This document shows, piece after piece, positions 3,299-39,004 of a stretch of DNA of 64,000 nt. The position numbers and the translations under genes are program-made. Position 1 is the first letter of the stretch. Each line of letters opens with the position of its first letter. The DNA comes from an uncultured Saprospiraceae bacterium. Its GTDB lineage: Bacteria; Bacteroidota; Bacteroidia; Chitinophagales; Saprospiraceae. Location of the stretch: assembly GCA_937981555.1 (NCBI GenBank), contig CALJOK010000077.1, positions 62,001 through 126,000 of the forward strand. Reading direction: 5' to 3'. The notes under the pieces are model-generated. The model made no database searches and was not told the origin of the DNA. It worked only from the letters and a program-made list of their open reading frames with translations.

Positions 3299-4093
3299 TT
3301 ATTTAAATGAAATTTCATCAAAAGTATTTAACCAAGTCTTTGCCATCAATTCTCCTCCACCTAAGGATGGATGAACACCATCAGCACACCAATAATCTAC
3401 TGGCGCAATTTTTAACGCATCATCAAATGTTTTTTGAAAAGGAACCCAATGAGCATTATAATCTGAAGCAATTTTTTTCGCAGCATTTTGATAAGCTATA
3501 AATGCAGGAAACCATTTTTCTTCGACAATAGCACTTCCTCCTTTGACCGCAAAGGGTTCACAAATTATCAATTTTACATTAGGTAATTCTTTTCGAGTTC
3601 GGTCAAGTAATTTCCTAAAATCCTCTTCGTAACTTTTAGCGGTACCTTTATAATTAAAATCCAAGGTATGCCAAAAATCATTTACACCAATCAAAATACT
3701 TAATACATCAGGACGAATCTGCAAACAATCTTCTTCCCAACGATTCGATAATTGAAAAACTTTATCTCCACTTATGCCTCGATTATAACATCGAATATTT
3801 GAAGTCGGATTACTTCCAAGTAATTCACTTACAGCTGGAAAAACGTAACTACCTCCTAATCCTCCCCAAGTATTATTAGCATAATATTGATCTCTTTTTC
3901 GCCCACCGTCGGTAACGGAATCGCCTTGGAAAAGTATGGTTAAATCTTTGGGTAATTCACGAGTCGTTTTTTCTTTTTTTGAAATAACAGATTGAGCTTG
4001 GAGATTTCCTAAACCTAAAACACCTACAGAGGCAACTGTTGTTTTTTTCAAAAATGATCTACGATCAGAAGGAGTTGATTTTTCGTTTTTCAT
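3299..4093 (-). CDS. Tat-exported SGNH/GDSL hydrolase
   Basis: 264 residues. The N-terminus SDRRSFLKKTTVASVGVLGL is a twin-arginine (Tat) signal, so the enzyme should be exported folded. The body carries all SGNH blocks: block I FQGDSVTDGG with nucleophile Ser59, block II NRGISGDKV with the oxyanion Gly, block III IGVNDFWH with the oxyanion Asn, and block V DGVHPS with Asp238 and His241 completing the catalytic triad. The family includes carbohydrate esterases such as acetylxylan and rhamnogalacturonan acetylesterases, arylesterases and lipases; the substrate cannot be told from sequence. The next gene, the aldehyde dehydrogenase, is co-directional upstream with a 59-base gap, but no functional link is obvious. 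Confidence 0.9.
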   Translation of the reverse strand: MKNEKSTPSDRRSFLKKTTVASVGVLGLGNLQAQSVISKKEKTTRELPKDLTILFQGDSVTDGGRKRDQYYANNTWGGLGGSYVFPAVSELLGSNPTSNIRCYNRGISGDKVFQLSNRWEEDCLQIRPDVLSILIGVNDFWHTLDFNYKGTAKSYEEDFRKLLDRTRKELPNVKLIICEPFAVKGGSAIVEEKWFPAFIAYQNAAKKIASDYNAHWVPFQKTFDDALKIAPVDYWCADGVHPSLGGGELMAKTWLNTFDEISFK

Positions 4094-4152
4094 GATTTTG
4101 TTTTTAAAAATAATATTTAGGCAGAGTCATAATTTTCTAAGGGGGGAAAAAA

Positions 4153-5607
4153 TCAAGAATATTTAATACACACATTTTTTGGTTCAGTAAAAAATTTCAT
4201 TGCCTCCAAACCACCTTCTCGACCGACACCTGAACTTTTGACTCCACCAAAAGGAGTTCGTAAATCACGAACCATCCAACAATTTACCCAAACGATTCCA
4301 GCCTCTAAATTCTCCGCCATTCGATTGGCTCTGGAAATATCTTTTGTCCAAACTGTGGCAGATAAACCATAATCCGTTCCATTAGCAAAACCTAGAACTT
4401 CTTCCTCCGTATCGAAAGGAGTGATAGTTACGACTGGTCCAAAAATCTCTTCCTGAATCGTCCGACAGTCTTGCGTCAAACCTTCGATGACCGCTGGACG
4501 AAGGAAATATCCATCAGCATATTCTCCTTTCATTTTGACTGGAGTACCGCCGCAAAGAATGGTTCCACCTTCCACTTCGGCAAGGGTAAGATAGCCCATT
4601 ACTTTTTCCATATGAGCCTTTGAAACGAGTGCGCCTAAATCAGTTACGGCTGAAAACGGATCACCTACTTTTAGAAATTGAGTTCGCTTGACGAGTTCAT
4701 CTCGAAATTTTTCATAGATCGCTCGCTCAATATAAATGCGTGAACCGCACAAACAAATTTGACCATTATTGGAAAAAGAAGATCGTAAAGTGGTCATCAT
4801 CATTTCATCAAAATCACAATCTGCGAAAATAATGTTGGGGTTTTTTCCACCCAATTCTAAGGAGAGTTTTTTAAACATCGGGCCAGCGGTGGAGATGATT
4901 TTTTTTCCAGTTTCAGTTCCACCTGTGAAAGAAATGGCTTTGATGCAAGGATGCTCGACCATGGCTTGACCTGTCTTAGCACCATGTCCGTGGACGATAT
5001 TTAAAACACCTTCTGGTAGACCCGCTTCGATGCACGCTTTCGATAACATGTAGGCAGTCATCGGAGTCATTTCTGACGGTTTGCCAATCACGCAATTTCC
5101 AGTTGCAAGAGCTGGAGCAATTTTCCAAGTGAATAAATACAAAGGTAAATTCCAAGGCGAAATACATCCGACTACACCTATTGGTTGGCGTAAAGTATAA
5201 TTGATTGCTTGGTTTGGCATCGAGTGAGACTCCGAAGAAAAATGTAAAAGTGAAGTTGCAAAAAATCTAATATTTTGATGCGCACGTGGAATGTCAACAC
5301 TTCGAGCCATGGCAAATGGTTTTCCAGAATCAATACTTTCTGCTTTGGCAAATTCCTCTAAATTTTGCTCGATGATGTCGGCAATCCGAGTTAAAATTCG
5401 AAATCGTTTGGTAGGTTCCATTCTTTTCCATTCAGGCAAAGCACGTTCTGCTGCCTCTAAAGCTTGCTGTACATCTTGCTCATCTGAGTCTGGGATGTGA
5501 GAATAAACTTGTCCAATCGCAGGATTATAATTGTCAAAATATTCACCTGAAACGGCTGGGACAAGTGCGCCATTGATATAATTTTTAATGTATTTATCTG
5601 GACTCAT
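4153..5607 (-). CDS. NAD-dependent aldehyde dehydrogenase, aminomuconate-semialdehyde type
   Basis: The 484-residue length fits a cytosolic ALDH subunit. Visible motifs are PWNLP with the oxyanion Asn153, the cofactor loops GKPSEMTP and FTGGTETGKK, the general base Glu251 in LELGGKNPN, and GQICLCGSR with catalytic Cys285. The C-terminal block GGVKSSGVGREGG followed by FFTEPKNVC resembles 2-aminomuconate and 2-hydroxymuconate semialdehyde dehydrogenases (human ALDH8A1-like), as does the ICLCxSRI sequence around the nucleophile. Known members oxidise 2-aminomuconate semialdehyde in tryptophan/kynurenine degradation. That role is an inference here, because no other kynurenine-pathway gene is in the window. 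GC content is slightly higher than its neighbours. Confidence 0.88.
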   Translation of the reverse strand: MSPDKYIKNYINGALVPAVSGEYFDNYNPAIGQVYSHIPDSDEQDVQQALEAAERALPEWKRMEPTKRFRILTRIADIIEQNLEEFAKAESIDSGKPFAMARSVDIPRAHQNIRFFATSLLHFSSESHSMPNQAINYTLRQPIGVVGCISPWNLPLYLFTWKIAPALATGNCVIGKPSEMTPMTAYMLSKACIEAGLPEGVLNIVHGHGAKTGQAMVEHPCIKAISFTGGTETGKKIISTAGPMFKKLSLELGGKNPNIIFADCDFDEMMMTTLRSSFSNNGQICLCGSRIYIERAIYEKFRDELVKRTQFLKVGDPFSAVTDLGALVSKAHMEKVMGYLTLAEVEGGTILCGGTPVKMKGEYADGYFLRPAVIEGLTQDCRTIQEEIFGPVVTITPFDTEEEVLGFANGTDYGLSATVWTKDISRANRMAENLEAGIVWVNCWMVRDLRTPFGGVKSSGVGREGGLEAMKFFTEPKNVCIKYS

Positions 5608-17020: not shown

Positions 17021-17881
17021 TTATGCATTATCCGTTGCGTTGTCAATTACATCTTTTGCATCAGAAGCAAGATCACCTGCTTTGTCAACAACACTACCTG
17101 CAACATCTTTCGCTCCTTCAGCTAAATCGCCCGCTTTGTCAACGACATTACCTGCCGCATCTTTTGCACTTTCTACAACATTGCCAACAACGTTTTTCGC
17201 ACCATCGGCTAATTCACCCGCTTTACCTGCGACAGTACCTGCTGCATCTTTGGCACCTTCCACAACATTACCAGCAACATTTTTCGCACCATCAGCTAAG
17301 TCACCCGCTTTATCAGCTACAGCACCCGCTGCATCTTTAGCACCTTCAACTGCATTACCTGCGACGTTTTTAGCACCATCAGCTAAGTCACCTGCTTTAT
17401 CAGCTACAGCACCCGCTGCATCTTTAGCACTTTCAACCGCATTACCTGCGACGTTTTTTGCACCATCAACTAAGTCGCCCGCTTTATCAGCTACAGCACC
17501 TGCTGCATCTTTGGCACTATCTACAACATTACCCGCAACATTTTTCGCACCATCAGCTAAGTCACCTGCTTTATCTAAAGCAGTTGAACCCATACTTTTA
17601 GCACCTTCCACAACATTACCAGCTGTATCACTTGCTTTCTCCATAACATCACCTGCTACATCTTTTGCACTTTCTGCAAGGTCGCCAGCTTTATCTAAAA
17701 CAGTCCCCCCCATGTCCTTGGCACCTTCAGCAACATTACCCGCAACATCCATTGCGTCTTCAGCTAAGTCACTTGCTTTTTCCATAACATTGCCTGCAAC
17801 ATCAGCAGCACCTTCAGCAACATCCCCAACTGCATCTTTTGCAGAACCAAATAAACCTTTAATAAAATCGAAGAATCCCAT
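17021..17881 (-). CDS. LEA/apolipoprotein-like protein with 29-residue tandem repeats
   Basis: 286 residues, almost wholly Ala/Gly/Asp/Lys/Val repeats such as KAGDLADGAKNVAGNVVEGA. The unit is 29 residues (87 bases), with copies spaced exactly 87 bases apart at 17199, 17286, 17373, 17460 and 17547; flanking copies are more diverged. The pattern suits long amphipathic helices like group 3 LEA proteins, which are disordered in solution and protect membranes and proteins during drying, freezing or salt stress. That role is inferred. The N-terminus MGFFDFIKGLFGSAKDAVGD is an amphipathic segment rather than a signal peptide, so the protein is probably cytoplasmic. The repeats also open long frames on the opposite strand, which I do not regard as genes. 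Confidence 0.85.
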   Translation of the reverse strand: MGFFDFIKGLFGSAKDAVGDVAEGAADVAGNVMEKASDLAEDAMDVAGNVAEGAKDMGGTVLDKAGDLAESAKDVAGDVMEKASDTAGNVVEGAKSMGSTALDKAGDLADGAKNVAGNVVDSAKDAAGAVADKAGDLVDGAKNVAGNAVESAKDAAGAVADKAGDLADGAKNVAGNAVEGAKDAAGAVADKAGDLADGAKNVAGNVVEGAKDAAGTVAGKAGELADGAKNVVGNVVESAKDAAGNVVDKAGDLAEGAKDVAGSVVDKAGDLASDAKDVIDNATDNA

Positions 17882-18085
17882 GTTTGTTAAGTTTTTTTGT
17901 TAGAAAATAATGGCCTTTTATAAAGGCTGAACAATTTTTATTGATTTTAAAGATAAAAAACTTTCGCTAAAAAATTAATATATGTCTATAAACGAGACTA
18001 TTGCGTTTGATTAAAGTCACATATTGATGTTTTCCGTTCTACGTTATAATTTTGGTGGGACAATTTTTTGATCTTATTTTAGGGC

Positions 18086-34745: not shown

Positions 34746-36860
34746 TTAGTTTTTAGAATCAACCTTCTTTTTTCTTTGCCACCATCTTCTTTTCTTTTTC
34801 CCATCAAATAATTTAACGGTCTCTACAGTTTCCTCTTCTTTTTTATCTCCTTCAACTGCTTCCAATCTTTCGATAAGTTTAGCAACTTCTGCATTATTTT
34901 TATTCAATTTTTGATCTAATTGATACATTAATGCAAGTAACTTAGTCTCTGTTTCAGAACGACCTTCTGCATCAACTTTTACAGTAGCAGCAGGAGCTAA
35001 ATCAGGAGAGACAGAAGTAGGCGCAGCCGGAGCAACAGTAGTTGACTCGCTTAATAATCTTTCCAAGCGATCCATTCTTCTAAGTAATTCAGTATTGTCC
35101 TGACGAGGTGCAGGAGTTGAATATTCTCGCATCTCTACATTGTTGTATGGAGCGGGTTGTGAATACATAGGTGAAGGGCCACTTGCACTTTCTAAAATTT
35201 CTTCAATTAAATTTTCAAACTCAGCAGGTGACATTCTGATTTCACTTCCAGAAGGAGTGATCGTCACATTTTGATTGCCTAGCGTTGAATTAGGTAAAGG
35301 AGCATTGTTAGCGTATGTCGTTGGCGTTGTATTAGTTGGCGCAACTACTACAGGTGAAGGATCAACGGTAGGTTGAATAATGATCGGAGTCGTTTCGACA
35401 ATAGGTTCGTCAATTTTTTCTAACTCTTCCACGATCTCTTCGACCTTTTGTTTTTCCTCTTTAAGGATAGCAGCTTTTTCCAAATCTTGCTCTGCGTATG
35501 CTTGAATTAATGCTTCTTCTAGATCTAGAATTTTCTGATCATATTGAACATGTAGTTCAGCAACTTTGGTATCATTAGCTTCTTGCTGTAACATTAATTG
35601 CTCATTGATTTGATCTTGAATAATGTCTTTTGGATTTTTATCTTTTTTTCCAAAATTCAATTTGATCCCAGCGCTGTAAAACCAAGAAGTTTGAATTTCC
35701 TCAGGTGCAGCCAAATTATCAACTGGTGAGCCAGAAGTAATGATTGCTCTTGCACTACCGAATATTTTGAAGTTCTTAGTTAAAGGAATTAATAAACCAG
35801 CACCACCCATTGCAAATCCAGTATCATCTCCTCCTTGTAATGAAACGCCCATAGAGTCAGTATCGATTGCTTTTTTTCCAACGTAACCATCATTCACATC
35901 TAACTTCCCACCACCGATCATCAAGAAAGGAACCATTCCTCCTCCTGTGTTAAGTCGCATTCGCATCTCTCCACCGTACATTGAAATATCATCAAATTTG
36001 GTAAACGAATCATCTTGGAGTCCTCTCCAGTAAAAACCATTAAGACCAATATAAGGTCCAAGGTCAAATCCTGCACTTGCTCCAACCATATTAGTATTAC
36101 GATAAACGAGTTTGTCATTGAAATTCATTTGACCAGCTACTGCTTCCAAGCCAATATTCAATCCACCTGATCCTCTTGTAAATGAATCAAAGTAAGCTCG
36201 ATCCAAATCAGACATTTGACCTGGCTTCCGACCTCCTAAATAAAATTGTAAAGATGCTCCAGCAGACCAGTTGGTCAAGTCTTCCATTTGGAAAGAGTTG
36301 CCTACTTCGTTCAAGTCAATTTTATCTTGATCGCTTAATAAGTGAGCGCCAGCGTTATATCGGTAAGCAGTATTTCTTCCCTCCAAAGTAAGGGTCATTC
36401 GATCTGCAATTCCAAGTTTTAAACCAAGTCCACCGGTCAAATAGATTTGTTCTCTTTCCAATGAATTATCCAGTTCTATTTTTTGAACTCCTGTACCTAA
36501 TAATACAAAAGGAAGTAAACGTCCTCTACTAATATTGGCTTTAATTTCACCGCCCCATCGAGTCAATTTGACATCGGAGGAGTTAAAAGTATTAGCATCA
36601 TAGGAAGCTAAACCAAAATCTTCAAAATCATTTTTTAAATCTAACCCTTGAAGATAAGAAGCACGAACTTCAAAAAATTCACCAAATCCTATTCCTAATT
36701 TTCCACCGACTAAGAAGCCATCTTCTAACCCTGCTTTGTCATTCCAGAATACATATTCTCCTGCTGGAGAAACGGTGTAACTGATACCTGCAACTTGTGC
36801 GAATCCTATTTGATATAAAAGAATAAAAAATAAAATCGCTTTTAAACGAATTGATGTCAT
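34746..36860 (-). CDS. Outer-membrane beta-barrel protein with coiled-coil C-terminal half
   Basis: 704 residues. The signal peptide is MTSIRLKAILFFILLYQIGF (cleavage near AQ). Residues ~20-410 are two barrel-like sections with paired strands: FEVRASYLQGLDLK, FVLLGTGVQKIELD and GLGLKLGIADRMTLTLEGRN in the first, then FDLGPYIGLNGFYWRGLQDD and MVPFLMIGGGKLDV. The C-terminal part has coiled coil (~430-490), a Thr/Pro linker (TPIIIQPTVDPSPVVVAPTN), the motif IRMSPAEFENLIEEILESAS and a final coiled coil with a Lys/Arg/Trp tail (KKRRWWQRKKK). The SPAEF motif matches TAAEY in the next protein. Function is unknown; probably an envelope scaffold. Confidence 0.8.
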   Translation of the reverse strand: MTSIRLKAILFFILLYQIGFAQVAGISYTVSPAGEYVFWNDKAGLEDGFLVGGKLGIGFGEFFEVRASYLQGLDLKNDFEDFGLASYDANTFNSSDVKLTRWGGEIKANISRGRLLPFVLLGTGVQKIELDNSLEREQIYLTGGLGLKLGIADRMTLTLEGRNTAYRYNAGAHLLSDQDKIDLNEVGNSFQMEDLTNWSAGASLQFYLGGRKPGQMSDLDRAYFDSFTRGSGGLNIGLEAVAGQMNFNDKLVYRNTNMVGASAGFDLGPYIGLNGFYWRGLQDDSFTKFDDISMYGGEMRMRLNTGGGMVPFLMIGGGKLDVNDGYVGKKAIDTDSMGVSLQGGDDTGFAMGGAGLLIPLTKNFKIFGSARAIITSGSPVDNLAAPEEIQTSWFYSAGIKLNFGKKDKNPKDIIQDQINEQLMLQQEANDTKVAELHVQYDQKILDLEEALIQAYAEQDLEKAAILKEEKQKVEEIVEELEKIDEPIVETTPIIIQPTVDPSPVVVAPTNTTPTTYANNAPLPNSTLGNQNVTITPSGSEIRMSPAEFENLIEEILESASGPSPMYSQPAPYNNVEMREYSTPAPRQDNTELLRRMDRLERLLSESTTVAPAAPTSVSPDLAPAATVKVDAEGRSETETKLLALMYQLDQKLNKNNAEVAKLIERLEAVEGDKKEEETVETVKLFDGKKKRRWWQRKKKVDSKN

Positions 36861-37305: not shown

Positions 37306-37419
37306 ATGGAAAAGAAATCAATAAAAGAAGTATCTAAAAAAATGAAAGCTTTGACAAAAGACAAAAAGAAAAATGTAAAAGGCGGCGGTGGCGGATTTAC
37401 AGATTTAGTTATTTGTTAA
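37306..37419 (+). CDS. Putative RiPP precursor peptide of the Bacteroidota GG-leader type
   Basis: 37 residues. The leader (~1-25) is Lys-rich and helical (MEKKSIKEVSKKMKALTKDK). It ends in a run of five glycines (KGGGGG), followed by a seven-residue core FTDLVIC with a C-terminal Cys. This layout (short Lys/Leu leader, Gly-Gly cleavage site, tiny core) is that of 'natural product precursor, GG-Bacteroidetes family' peptides, whose leaders are cut by C39-type exporters after GG. No maturation enzyme, peptidase-transporter or second precursor lies in the window, so modification is unproven. It is upstream of, and on the same strand as, the broken T9SS gene. Confidence 0.55.
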   Translation: MEKKSIKEVSKKMKALTKDKKKNVKGGGGGFTDLVIC

Positions 37420-37561: not shown

Positions 37562-39004
37562 ATGTCAAAATTATCTTTAACTTTTTTATTTATACTAATT
37601 ACGGTCTCATTAAATGCTCAGTTTTTATGGCAACAGAACTATCCAAATTTGATAGAAGAGGATCATGTATTAAAATCTCATATTGCCACTTCAGATGGTA
37701 ACTATCTTATTTTTGGATCGCAAAAAATAACTCCCGGATTAGATCCAAGGTTCCTCCAAAAAATAGACGATCAAGGAAATTTACTTTGGAAAAAAGTTAT
37801 TGATTCTATTTCTTATGGTGTTCTAACAGGATTATGTTCAACCTTAGATGGTAACTTTATGACTTCAAGTGCGACAACATTTGATGCAAAAATGATCAAG
37901 GTTACTCCTGATGGAGAAATTATATGGACCGTAGAGCACGAAGATTTAGGGAGAGGAAATACGCCGAGTGGTAATCAAATAACTAACACAGGCGAAGGCG
38001 GTTTTCTTTTAACAGGTAGTGAAATCCAAAATAACAATAACCTGGCAATCATGGTTTTAAAGACAGATTCTCAAGGGGAAGAAATTTGGAAAAATAAATA
38101 CTTTGCTACCAACAATCAGAGTAGTCAAGAATATGGAACGACGATTTTTGAGATAGCGGATGGTAGTATTTTAGTTGCAGGAGTAAGTACTACTACGAAT
38201 GATATGCTCCTTTTGAAATTAGATAAAGATGGAAATCATCTTTGGAGCCAAATTTATGATTACTCTGATTCCTTTGAAGTACCAACTCAAATTGAATTAT
38301 CTCCTGATGGAAATGGATTTTATATTTTAGGGATGGGAAATAATTTAACGCTGAATAAACCTACATTATTAAAAATAGATTTTGATGGAAATGCTGAATG
38401 GCAGAAAAATTACGGACAAGGAACTACAGCTGAACTATCAACAACAATGACTTTTACTTCAGATTGTAACATGGTACTTACGCACGGTGAAGATAGCAAT
38501 CAAGCGGTAGCTAGTTTACTAGTTAAGTTAGATTATGATGGAAATGAATTATGTACCTATTTGTTGGATCAAGGAGAGGATACTGATTTCCGACCGCTAG
38601 CCATTAGTGAAAAACCTAATGAAGAATTGATTGTGATGGGTACGATTAAGGAGTGCGAAACATGTATCACTAAAATTTTTTCTTTAGGAACGACTAGTAT
38701 ATGCGAAAGTTTAAACTGCCTGTCATCCGTTTCTAATCAATCAGCTTTATTTTCTATCTCTATTTATCCTAACCCAAACAATGGAATTATAAATATAGAA
38801 TCAGAGCTTATTAATTCAGGGATTTTATATTTTGACGTTTACAATATGACTGGTTCAAGAATAAAATCATCTCAATAAATTATTAATGATCTTGATTCTT
38901 CACAAACAATGATACTTGATCTTAGCTCTTTTCCAAAAGGACTTTATTATTTAAAAACTCATTTCGAGGATGAATTTCAAACCTTTAAAATATTGGTTCA
39001 ATAA
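37562..39004 (+). pseudogene. T9SS-secreted protein interrupted by an in-frame TAA in its sorting domain
   Basis: A frame of 481 codons, counting the final stop, is broken only by TAA at 38876-38878. The first part (438 residues) has a signal peptide (LSLTFLFILITVSLNAQ) and a repeated beta-propeller-like section with recurring D-x-x-G-N-x-L/W units (DDQGNLLWKK, DKDGNHLWSQ, DFDGNAEWQKN). The sorting domain begins at SIYPNPNNGIINIESE. After the stop, the same frame continues for 41 codons as ILDLSSFPKGLYYLKT...FKILVQ, exactly the second half of a T9SS type A domain. Stopping early would remove the end of the signal needed for secretion. Most likely a recent nonsense mutation or a base error; read-through is possible. 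Confidence 0.85.

Follow-up and report, generated by a model that had tools for sequence, protein, structure and literature searches.

A GG-leader micropeptide gene in a Saprospiraceae genome, a candidate precursor of a short secreted peptide

What does a 37-codon reading frame with a lysine-rich first half, a run of five glycines and a short tail ending in cysteine encode, if it encodes anything? The preliminary description of this locus took it for the precursor of a modified natural product (RiPP), lacking its enzymes and exporter nearby. Here, we ask whether the open reading frame (ORF) is more than a chance product, and what its peptide might do. The window, i.e. the whole 64,000-nucleotide stretch analysed, belongs to contig C77 of the 7.25-Mb genome (97% complete) of an uncultured Saprospiraceae bacterium, referred to below as the own genome.

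The micropeptide gene and its surroundings

The 37-aa ORF was confirmed, with an ATG start, a TAA stop and the translation MEKKSIKEVSKKMKALTKDKKKNVKGGGGGFTDLVIC. It stands alone, flanked on one side by an OMP-like gene on the minus strand and on the other by a secreted-protein gene on the plus strand, and the following features are referred to below.

37306–37419, plus strand: GG-leader micropeptide gene, 37 aa plus stop
37306–37386, plus strand: leader, residues 1–27, with a K-G-G end, placed by the register with relatives
37381–37395, plus strand: five-glycine run, codons GGC GGC GGT GGC GGA, read from the sequence
37387–37416, plus strand: probable core GGGFTDLVIC, placed by the register with relatives
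37396–37416, plus strand: alternative core FTDLVIC, if the cut falls after the last glycine
37562–38878, plus strand: secreted-protein gene downstream of the micropeptide ORF, on the same strand, with matches to a DUF5122 beta-propeller and a Por sorting tail, both below cut-off
34746–36860, minus strand: divergent gene upstream of the micropeptide ORF, OMP-like in our reading, with no Pfam match above cut-off

Among five genus genomes, the OMP-like gene had matches in the own genome only. In the secreted-protein gene, an in-frame stop interrupts the sorting tail and the frame resumes in an ORF at 38909–39004 (whole span 37562–39004, plus strand). The secreted protein was considered as a partner of the micropeptide and rejected: in the sole similar layout noticed (locus L137), the secreted protein has no significant similarity to it. 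Elsewhere in the window, a repetitive ORF at 17040–17900 (plus strand) has a start rich in Ser, Thr, Pro and Ala.

Known families gave no name to the peptide. The preliminary description had proposed a search with a TIGR04149-like model, and no NCBIfam family matched at E≤10. Neither Pfam nor PHROGs provided a usable match (the best PHROG, of unknown function, had an E of 0.089), and plasmids gave none at E≤1. A 33-base piece of the GG/core DNA had no identical copy in viral contigs, and a tRNA was the sole Rfam match at gathering threshold within the 64-kb window.

The ORF was then compared with the 374 ATG ORFs of 20–120 aa in the window. Leave-one-out models, built without the window ORF, placed it first of the 374 (27.9 bits, E 3e-8) and none of 5000 shuffles reached it (one of four runs scored 4999), although these models are partly circular because their members had been found by similarity to the window ORF. 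Within the own genome, the best other match of the window peptide was MKKVVKNSIKNFTKNVKALSKIENKKIKGGITNTDLGVI on C12, not significant alone (E 0.155), and the second was a GG peptide on C49. The position of the C12 GG-leader gene is kept in four genus genomes (own included), where it adjoins a gene of 509–514 aa and one of 1176 aa, the latter presumably dnaE-like. A profile of only these four syntenic C12-type peptides again ranked the window ORF first of 374 (19.7 bits, E 1e-5), and its score was matched by none of 10,000 full shuffles and none of 10,000 leader-only shuffles. Nine sets from the own genome, that of C12 among them, were tried as profiles; across these, the window ORF ranked first in six, second in one, 22nd with C45 and 284th with C63.

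A stricter model gave a weaker result. When built from nine distant members located by position rather than by similarity, it scored the window ORF at 6.0 bits (third rank, E 0.35), a value that 86 of the 4999 full shuffles and 272 of the 5000 leader shuffles reached or passed. An earlier model had ranked the ORF first at 10.8 bits, and one full shuffle and 77 leader shuffles, out of 5000 each, did as well, but this model was not independent because the profile search itself had supplied some of its members, and the result weakened after the rebuild. A direct orthologue of the window copy was found in none of four congeners, one of them only 66% complete. Relatives with a conserved start, leader and GG, whose absence the preliminary description had named as evidence against the gene, were found both in the own genome and in congeners. 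Altogether, the window ORF is very probably a real GG-leader gene, near the C12 type and with an outlying core. In this much, the preliminary description holds, and the layout of the gene is ordinary.

The leader ends in GG. In the available excerpts of PMC7018657, substrates of peptidase-containing transporters (PCATs) have three or four hydrophobic residues among positions −4, −7, −12 and −15. With a cut after G27, the window leader presents M at −15, L at −12, K at −7 and V at −4, so three of the four positions are hydrophobic and the −7 is Lys. In 19 relatives, position −12 is I, L or V throughout, and, counting Ala as hydrophobic, −4 is hydrophobic in 18, −15 in 12 and −7 in four. The preliminary description put the boundary behind the fifth glycine, with FTDLVIC as the core; cutting there would break the register with the relatives, therefore the leader probably ends at G27, after the second glycine, and the core is probably GGGFTDLVIC. 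In the alignment of all 20 peptides, this core has its D-L in the same column as the relatives' cores, while a D-[ILVM] motif arises in 23% of shuffles of the window core. Being Gly-rich and having one Cys, the window core is an outlier among its relatives.

Related peptides and their TPR-like neighbours

A profile built from the window peptide and six others had matches at E≤1 in 137 of 298 genomes of the family, and many of the weak ones are expected to be noise. Among the better matches, many join a GG leader to a short acidic-aliphatic core (e.g. ITNTDLGVI, TVSEDIIII, IVVEEDILL, IIIEDVRGL, IVIEDLHDG and VIVVDIIAPL), and some of these lie in tandem; in other GG peptides, the core is longer or of another kind. 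The members of the 20-peptide alignment were hand-picked for short cores, so that core length is not a result; left out were the longer-core own peptides of C45, C64, C106, C1 and C49, the second of C80 and others, some with Cys. Of the 19 short cores so chosen, none contains Cys and 16 have x-D-[ILVM]-x; 2000 shuffled sets gave 9.3 on average and 18 at most. The own genome encodes at least ten GG peptides, the window's included. The latter fits the family in its leader and D column, with only 6.0 bits in the strict model and a core set apart by its Gly and Cys.

Two other kinds of GG peptide were seen along the way. Peptides with repeated IGNDDIEAG-type cores occur in the own genome and congeners (L116 2814–2948, L117 5473–5646, L120, L122, L123 and L124); the L116 copy adjoins a phage-integrase gene and several lie beside a recurring gene of about 215–240 aa, so that they look mobile-element-borne. 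Further, at G002:C333, L075 4772–5326, one identical GG peptide with the core GPDKCPPPFDR is encoded by three tandem genes.

Many peptide genes of the relatives adjoin a gene of about 460–520 aa, and four such proteins scanned with Pfam had no match above cut-off. These neighbours form two groups, famA, mostly convergent with the peptide gene and close by, and famB, mostly divergent from it; the two could not be related to each other, and the idea that both are one family was rejected (hhalign probability 0.9%). A famA or famB match lay within 1.5 kb in 21 of 48 peptide loci and in none of 64 background windows, counts to be read with the sample in mind: the loci are those tested of the best 51 profile rows (E≤0.0145, three without a fetched locus), several flanks end at contig ends, four of the 21 positives represent a single set of orthologues, the famA/famB models derive from genes already noticed next to peptides, and the background was drawn from the window itself and 11 genus loci, not from random genomes. 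The chance expectation is about 0.4 of 48, given 225 famA/famB genes in about 112 Mb (25 genomes). In the own genome, which has 16 famA and three famB matches, peptides lie beside famA at C80, C45 and C63, those of C63 and C45 being convergent with it at 3 and 61 bp, respectively, and beside famB at C12 and C1. No famA or famB match was found among the genes of the window. The famA group is expanded in some genomes, with 35 matches in each of two others among the 25 searched, besides the 16 of the own genome.

Reverse scans of famA and famB copies, made with a GG-peptide pattern of our own that may miss or overcall, led us to reject the idea that each such gene has a peptide beside it. Around 43 famA copies, two convincing peptides were found (C45 and C63), and the scan of these plus one famB copy, which included 14 own-genome famA copies besides that of C80, gave four pattern calls. 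For famB genes found with famB, calls were obtained upstream in 8 of 77 and downstream in 4 of 74, compared to 25 of 1540 for shuffled upstream sequence; five upstream and two downstream were judged genuine by eye, i.e. about 7 of 77 with a family-like peptide. Four of these seven loci (L285, L286, L309 and L353) were already known from the peptide search, and the L304 peptide is a close relative of that of L309. Two family members, with the cores IMAIDIDGL and LVVTDVLAF, were thus found via famB genes, with no peptide query. The link from famA/famB genes back to peptides is loose. At L253, a small convergent ORF lies 2 bp past a famA gene (3604–5079); its peptide ends in IVVEDLVVN, a core of the family type, with no GG.

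One protein of each group was modelled with AlphaFold, and both models were all-helical (pLDDT 83 each). Foldseek returned weak matches, mainly to TPR proteins, with best E values of 2e-3 (famB) and 2e-2 (famA), none below 1e-3, and query TM scores of 0.18–0.38. Peptide receptors were among them (AimR at rank 6 and Rap at rank 13 for famB, RapF at rank 21 for famA), together with many eukaryotic TPR proteins. The predicted models are compatible with a putative peptide-binding solenoid.

Export, modification and competing explanations

The preliminary description had proposed a genome-wide check for peptidase-containing ABC transporters. Three C39 peptidases were detected in the own genome, two of them full C39-ABC exporters with HlyD: that of C75 also has a TolC-like gene, and that of C37 has HlyD as its neighbour. 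The third is a lone 173-aa protein (L067 9054–9572), lipoprotein-like by appearance. None is on the contig of the window, so the earlier statement that no C39 exporter lies beside the ORF is correct, and the designation 'orphan' applies to the window and not to the genome, because the latter encodes these peptidases and exporters. The parallel check for RiPP enzymes was negative: the own genome, at 97% completeness, yielded no LanB match, no LanC-like match and a single SPASM match, at 22.4 bits below its cut-off of 27. With two C39-ABC exporters and no LanB, LanC-like or above-cut-off SPASM protein, the genome therefore offers a candidate export route and no modification route among the classes searched. 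LanB-type matches are present in the four congeners, each of which has a C39 match within about 1.5 kb of the LanB-type match (L080, L083, G002:C237 and G003:C45); the C39 frame of G003 holds stops.

Quite possibly, then, the window ORF encodes a secreted peptide precursor, C39-exported and probably unmodified, whose product would serve in signalling. The Lys-rich leader, with hydrophobic residues at −15, −12 and −4 and then GG, would direct the precursor to the C39-ABC exporter of C75 or C37, which would cut after G27 and release the ten-residue GGGFTDLVIC, probably unmodified. By analogy, the released peptide might act as a short signal, and its sensor would be a TPR-type protein whose gene lies elsewhere. 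A signal role is suggested because the acidic-aliphatic cores of the relatives often share D-[ILVM] and often adjoin a TPR-like protein. What the sequences show directly is the ORF, the likeness of its leader to others, the exporters of the genome and the relatives, many of them with TPR-like genes alongside; that the window peptide is expressed, exported, cut, left unmodified and read as a signal by a receptor is inferred. Counted against the signal reading are the lack of famA/famB in the window and of an orthologue in the congeners, the outlier core, the Lys at −7 and the weak strict model, together with the loose reverse link, the frequency of the motif in core shuffles and the lack of any Foldseek E below 1e-3. 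Broader, and doubtful, is the proposal of a Saprospiraceae peptide-signalling system in which dispersed GG micropeptides would give rise to roughly nine-residue pheromones, exported by C39 transporters and received by famA/famB proteins, with the window gene as a solitary sender.

Two rivals stand out, a relic copy and a RiPP made by an enzyme class other than LanB, LanC-like or SPASM. A relic or unexpressed copy, i.e. a decaying duplicate of the C12 type whose glycine run perhaps grew by slippage, would be in line with the missing orthologue in four congeners, the lack of a TPR-like partner, the outlier core, the stop in the neighbouring secreted-protein gene and the weak strict model. It is nevertheless unlikely, given that start, hydrophobic leader pattern and GG are intact and that D-L is retained in the core column of the family. 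The reading of the preliminary description, a RiPP precursor served by modifying enzymes elsewhere, was not supported and appears rather improbable: among the classes searched, the own genome has no LanB or LanC-like match and its SPASM match is below cut-off, the window peptide matches no NCBIfam family and the 19 chosen cores of its relatives are devoid of Cys. What speaks for it is the presence of Cys, Thr and Asp in the window core and of LanB-type matches in the four congeners, though not in the own genome; further, in the excerpts of PMC10352776, Bacteroidales RiPP clusters commonly combine GG precursors with PCATs.

The remaining two explanations concern function. That the peptide never leaves the cell and instead binds a cytoplasmic TPR-like protein would agree with the frequent adjacency of relatives to a TPR-like gene, with the convergent pairs of C63 and C45 and with the GG-less ORF of L253, which has a core of the family type; the GG and the −12/−4 pattern are, however, kept across the aligned family, which makes an intracellular ligand improbable. 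Less probable again is an antimicrobial, i.e. a class II-like bacteriocin or microcin using the C39 exporter, as the window core of 7–10 residues is far below the length of class II bacteriocins, and no immunity-like gene was recognised among five scanned neighbours. In favour of an antimicrobial, the export layout is the one that the available part of PMC10352776 gives for bacteroidetocins and colicin V.

Comparison with known systems

GG peptides as such are already known. As far as the excerpts of PMC7018657 go, the streptococcal GG peptides and PCAT substrates share with the window peptide the GG leader end, the hydrophobic −15, −12 and −4 and C39-ABC exporters in the genome; they differ from it in that the window peptide has Lys at −7, a Gram-negative host, no adjacent exporter and a core of about 10 residues. 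The small GG-motif proteins EbfG1–4 of Synechococcus elongatus require a C39 peptidase transporter for efficient secretion and have a demonstrated biofilm role, in the accessible portion of PMC4997328; they belong to another phylum, and the window peptide is known here from sequence alone. The layout also resembles the NCBIfam GG leaders TIGR04149, leader_Chryseo and TIGR01847, but the window peptide matches none of them at E≤10; the own-genome GG peptide of C49 comes close to leader_Chryseo (23.0 bits, cut-off 23.5) and reaches 20.9 bits with TIGR04149 (cut-off 25).

The more interesting result is the family around the window gene, with its short Asp-bearing cores and TPR-like neighbours. In an open-licence literature search of limited extent, we found no paper that describes GG micropeptides of Saprospiraceae in pairs with TPR-like genes. 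Comparable are the Bacteroidales RiPP clusters BGC2 and BGC9, which combine GG precursors with tetratricopeptide-like genes; according to the excerpts of PMC10352776, such domains are known from other systems to bind pheromones, and its authors propose that some of the clusters serve in signalling. Those clusters contain modifying enzymes, whereas none was recognised beside the peptide–TPR pairs found here, whose neighbours are identified only in part. The relatives, with a short propeptide gene adjoining that of a TPR-like protein of about 500 aa, resemble the RRNPP quorum-sensing systems of Firmicutes, as these are presented in the excerpts of PMC10075063, a study that ran RRNPP_detector on Firmicutes and viruses. 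They differ in their Bacteroidota host, their GG leader, their weak fold matches and the candidate status of their receptors, and the window copy, with no TPR-like gene beside it, does not have the RRNPP-type adjacency of propeptide and TPR receptor genes. Should the pairs indeed signal, peptide signalling through intracellular receptors would extend to a Gram-negative phylum.
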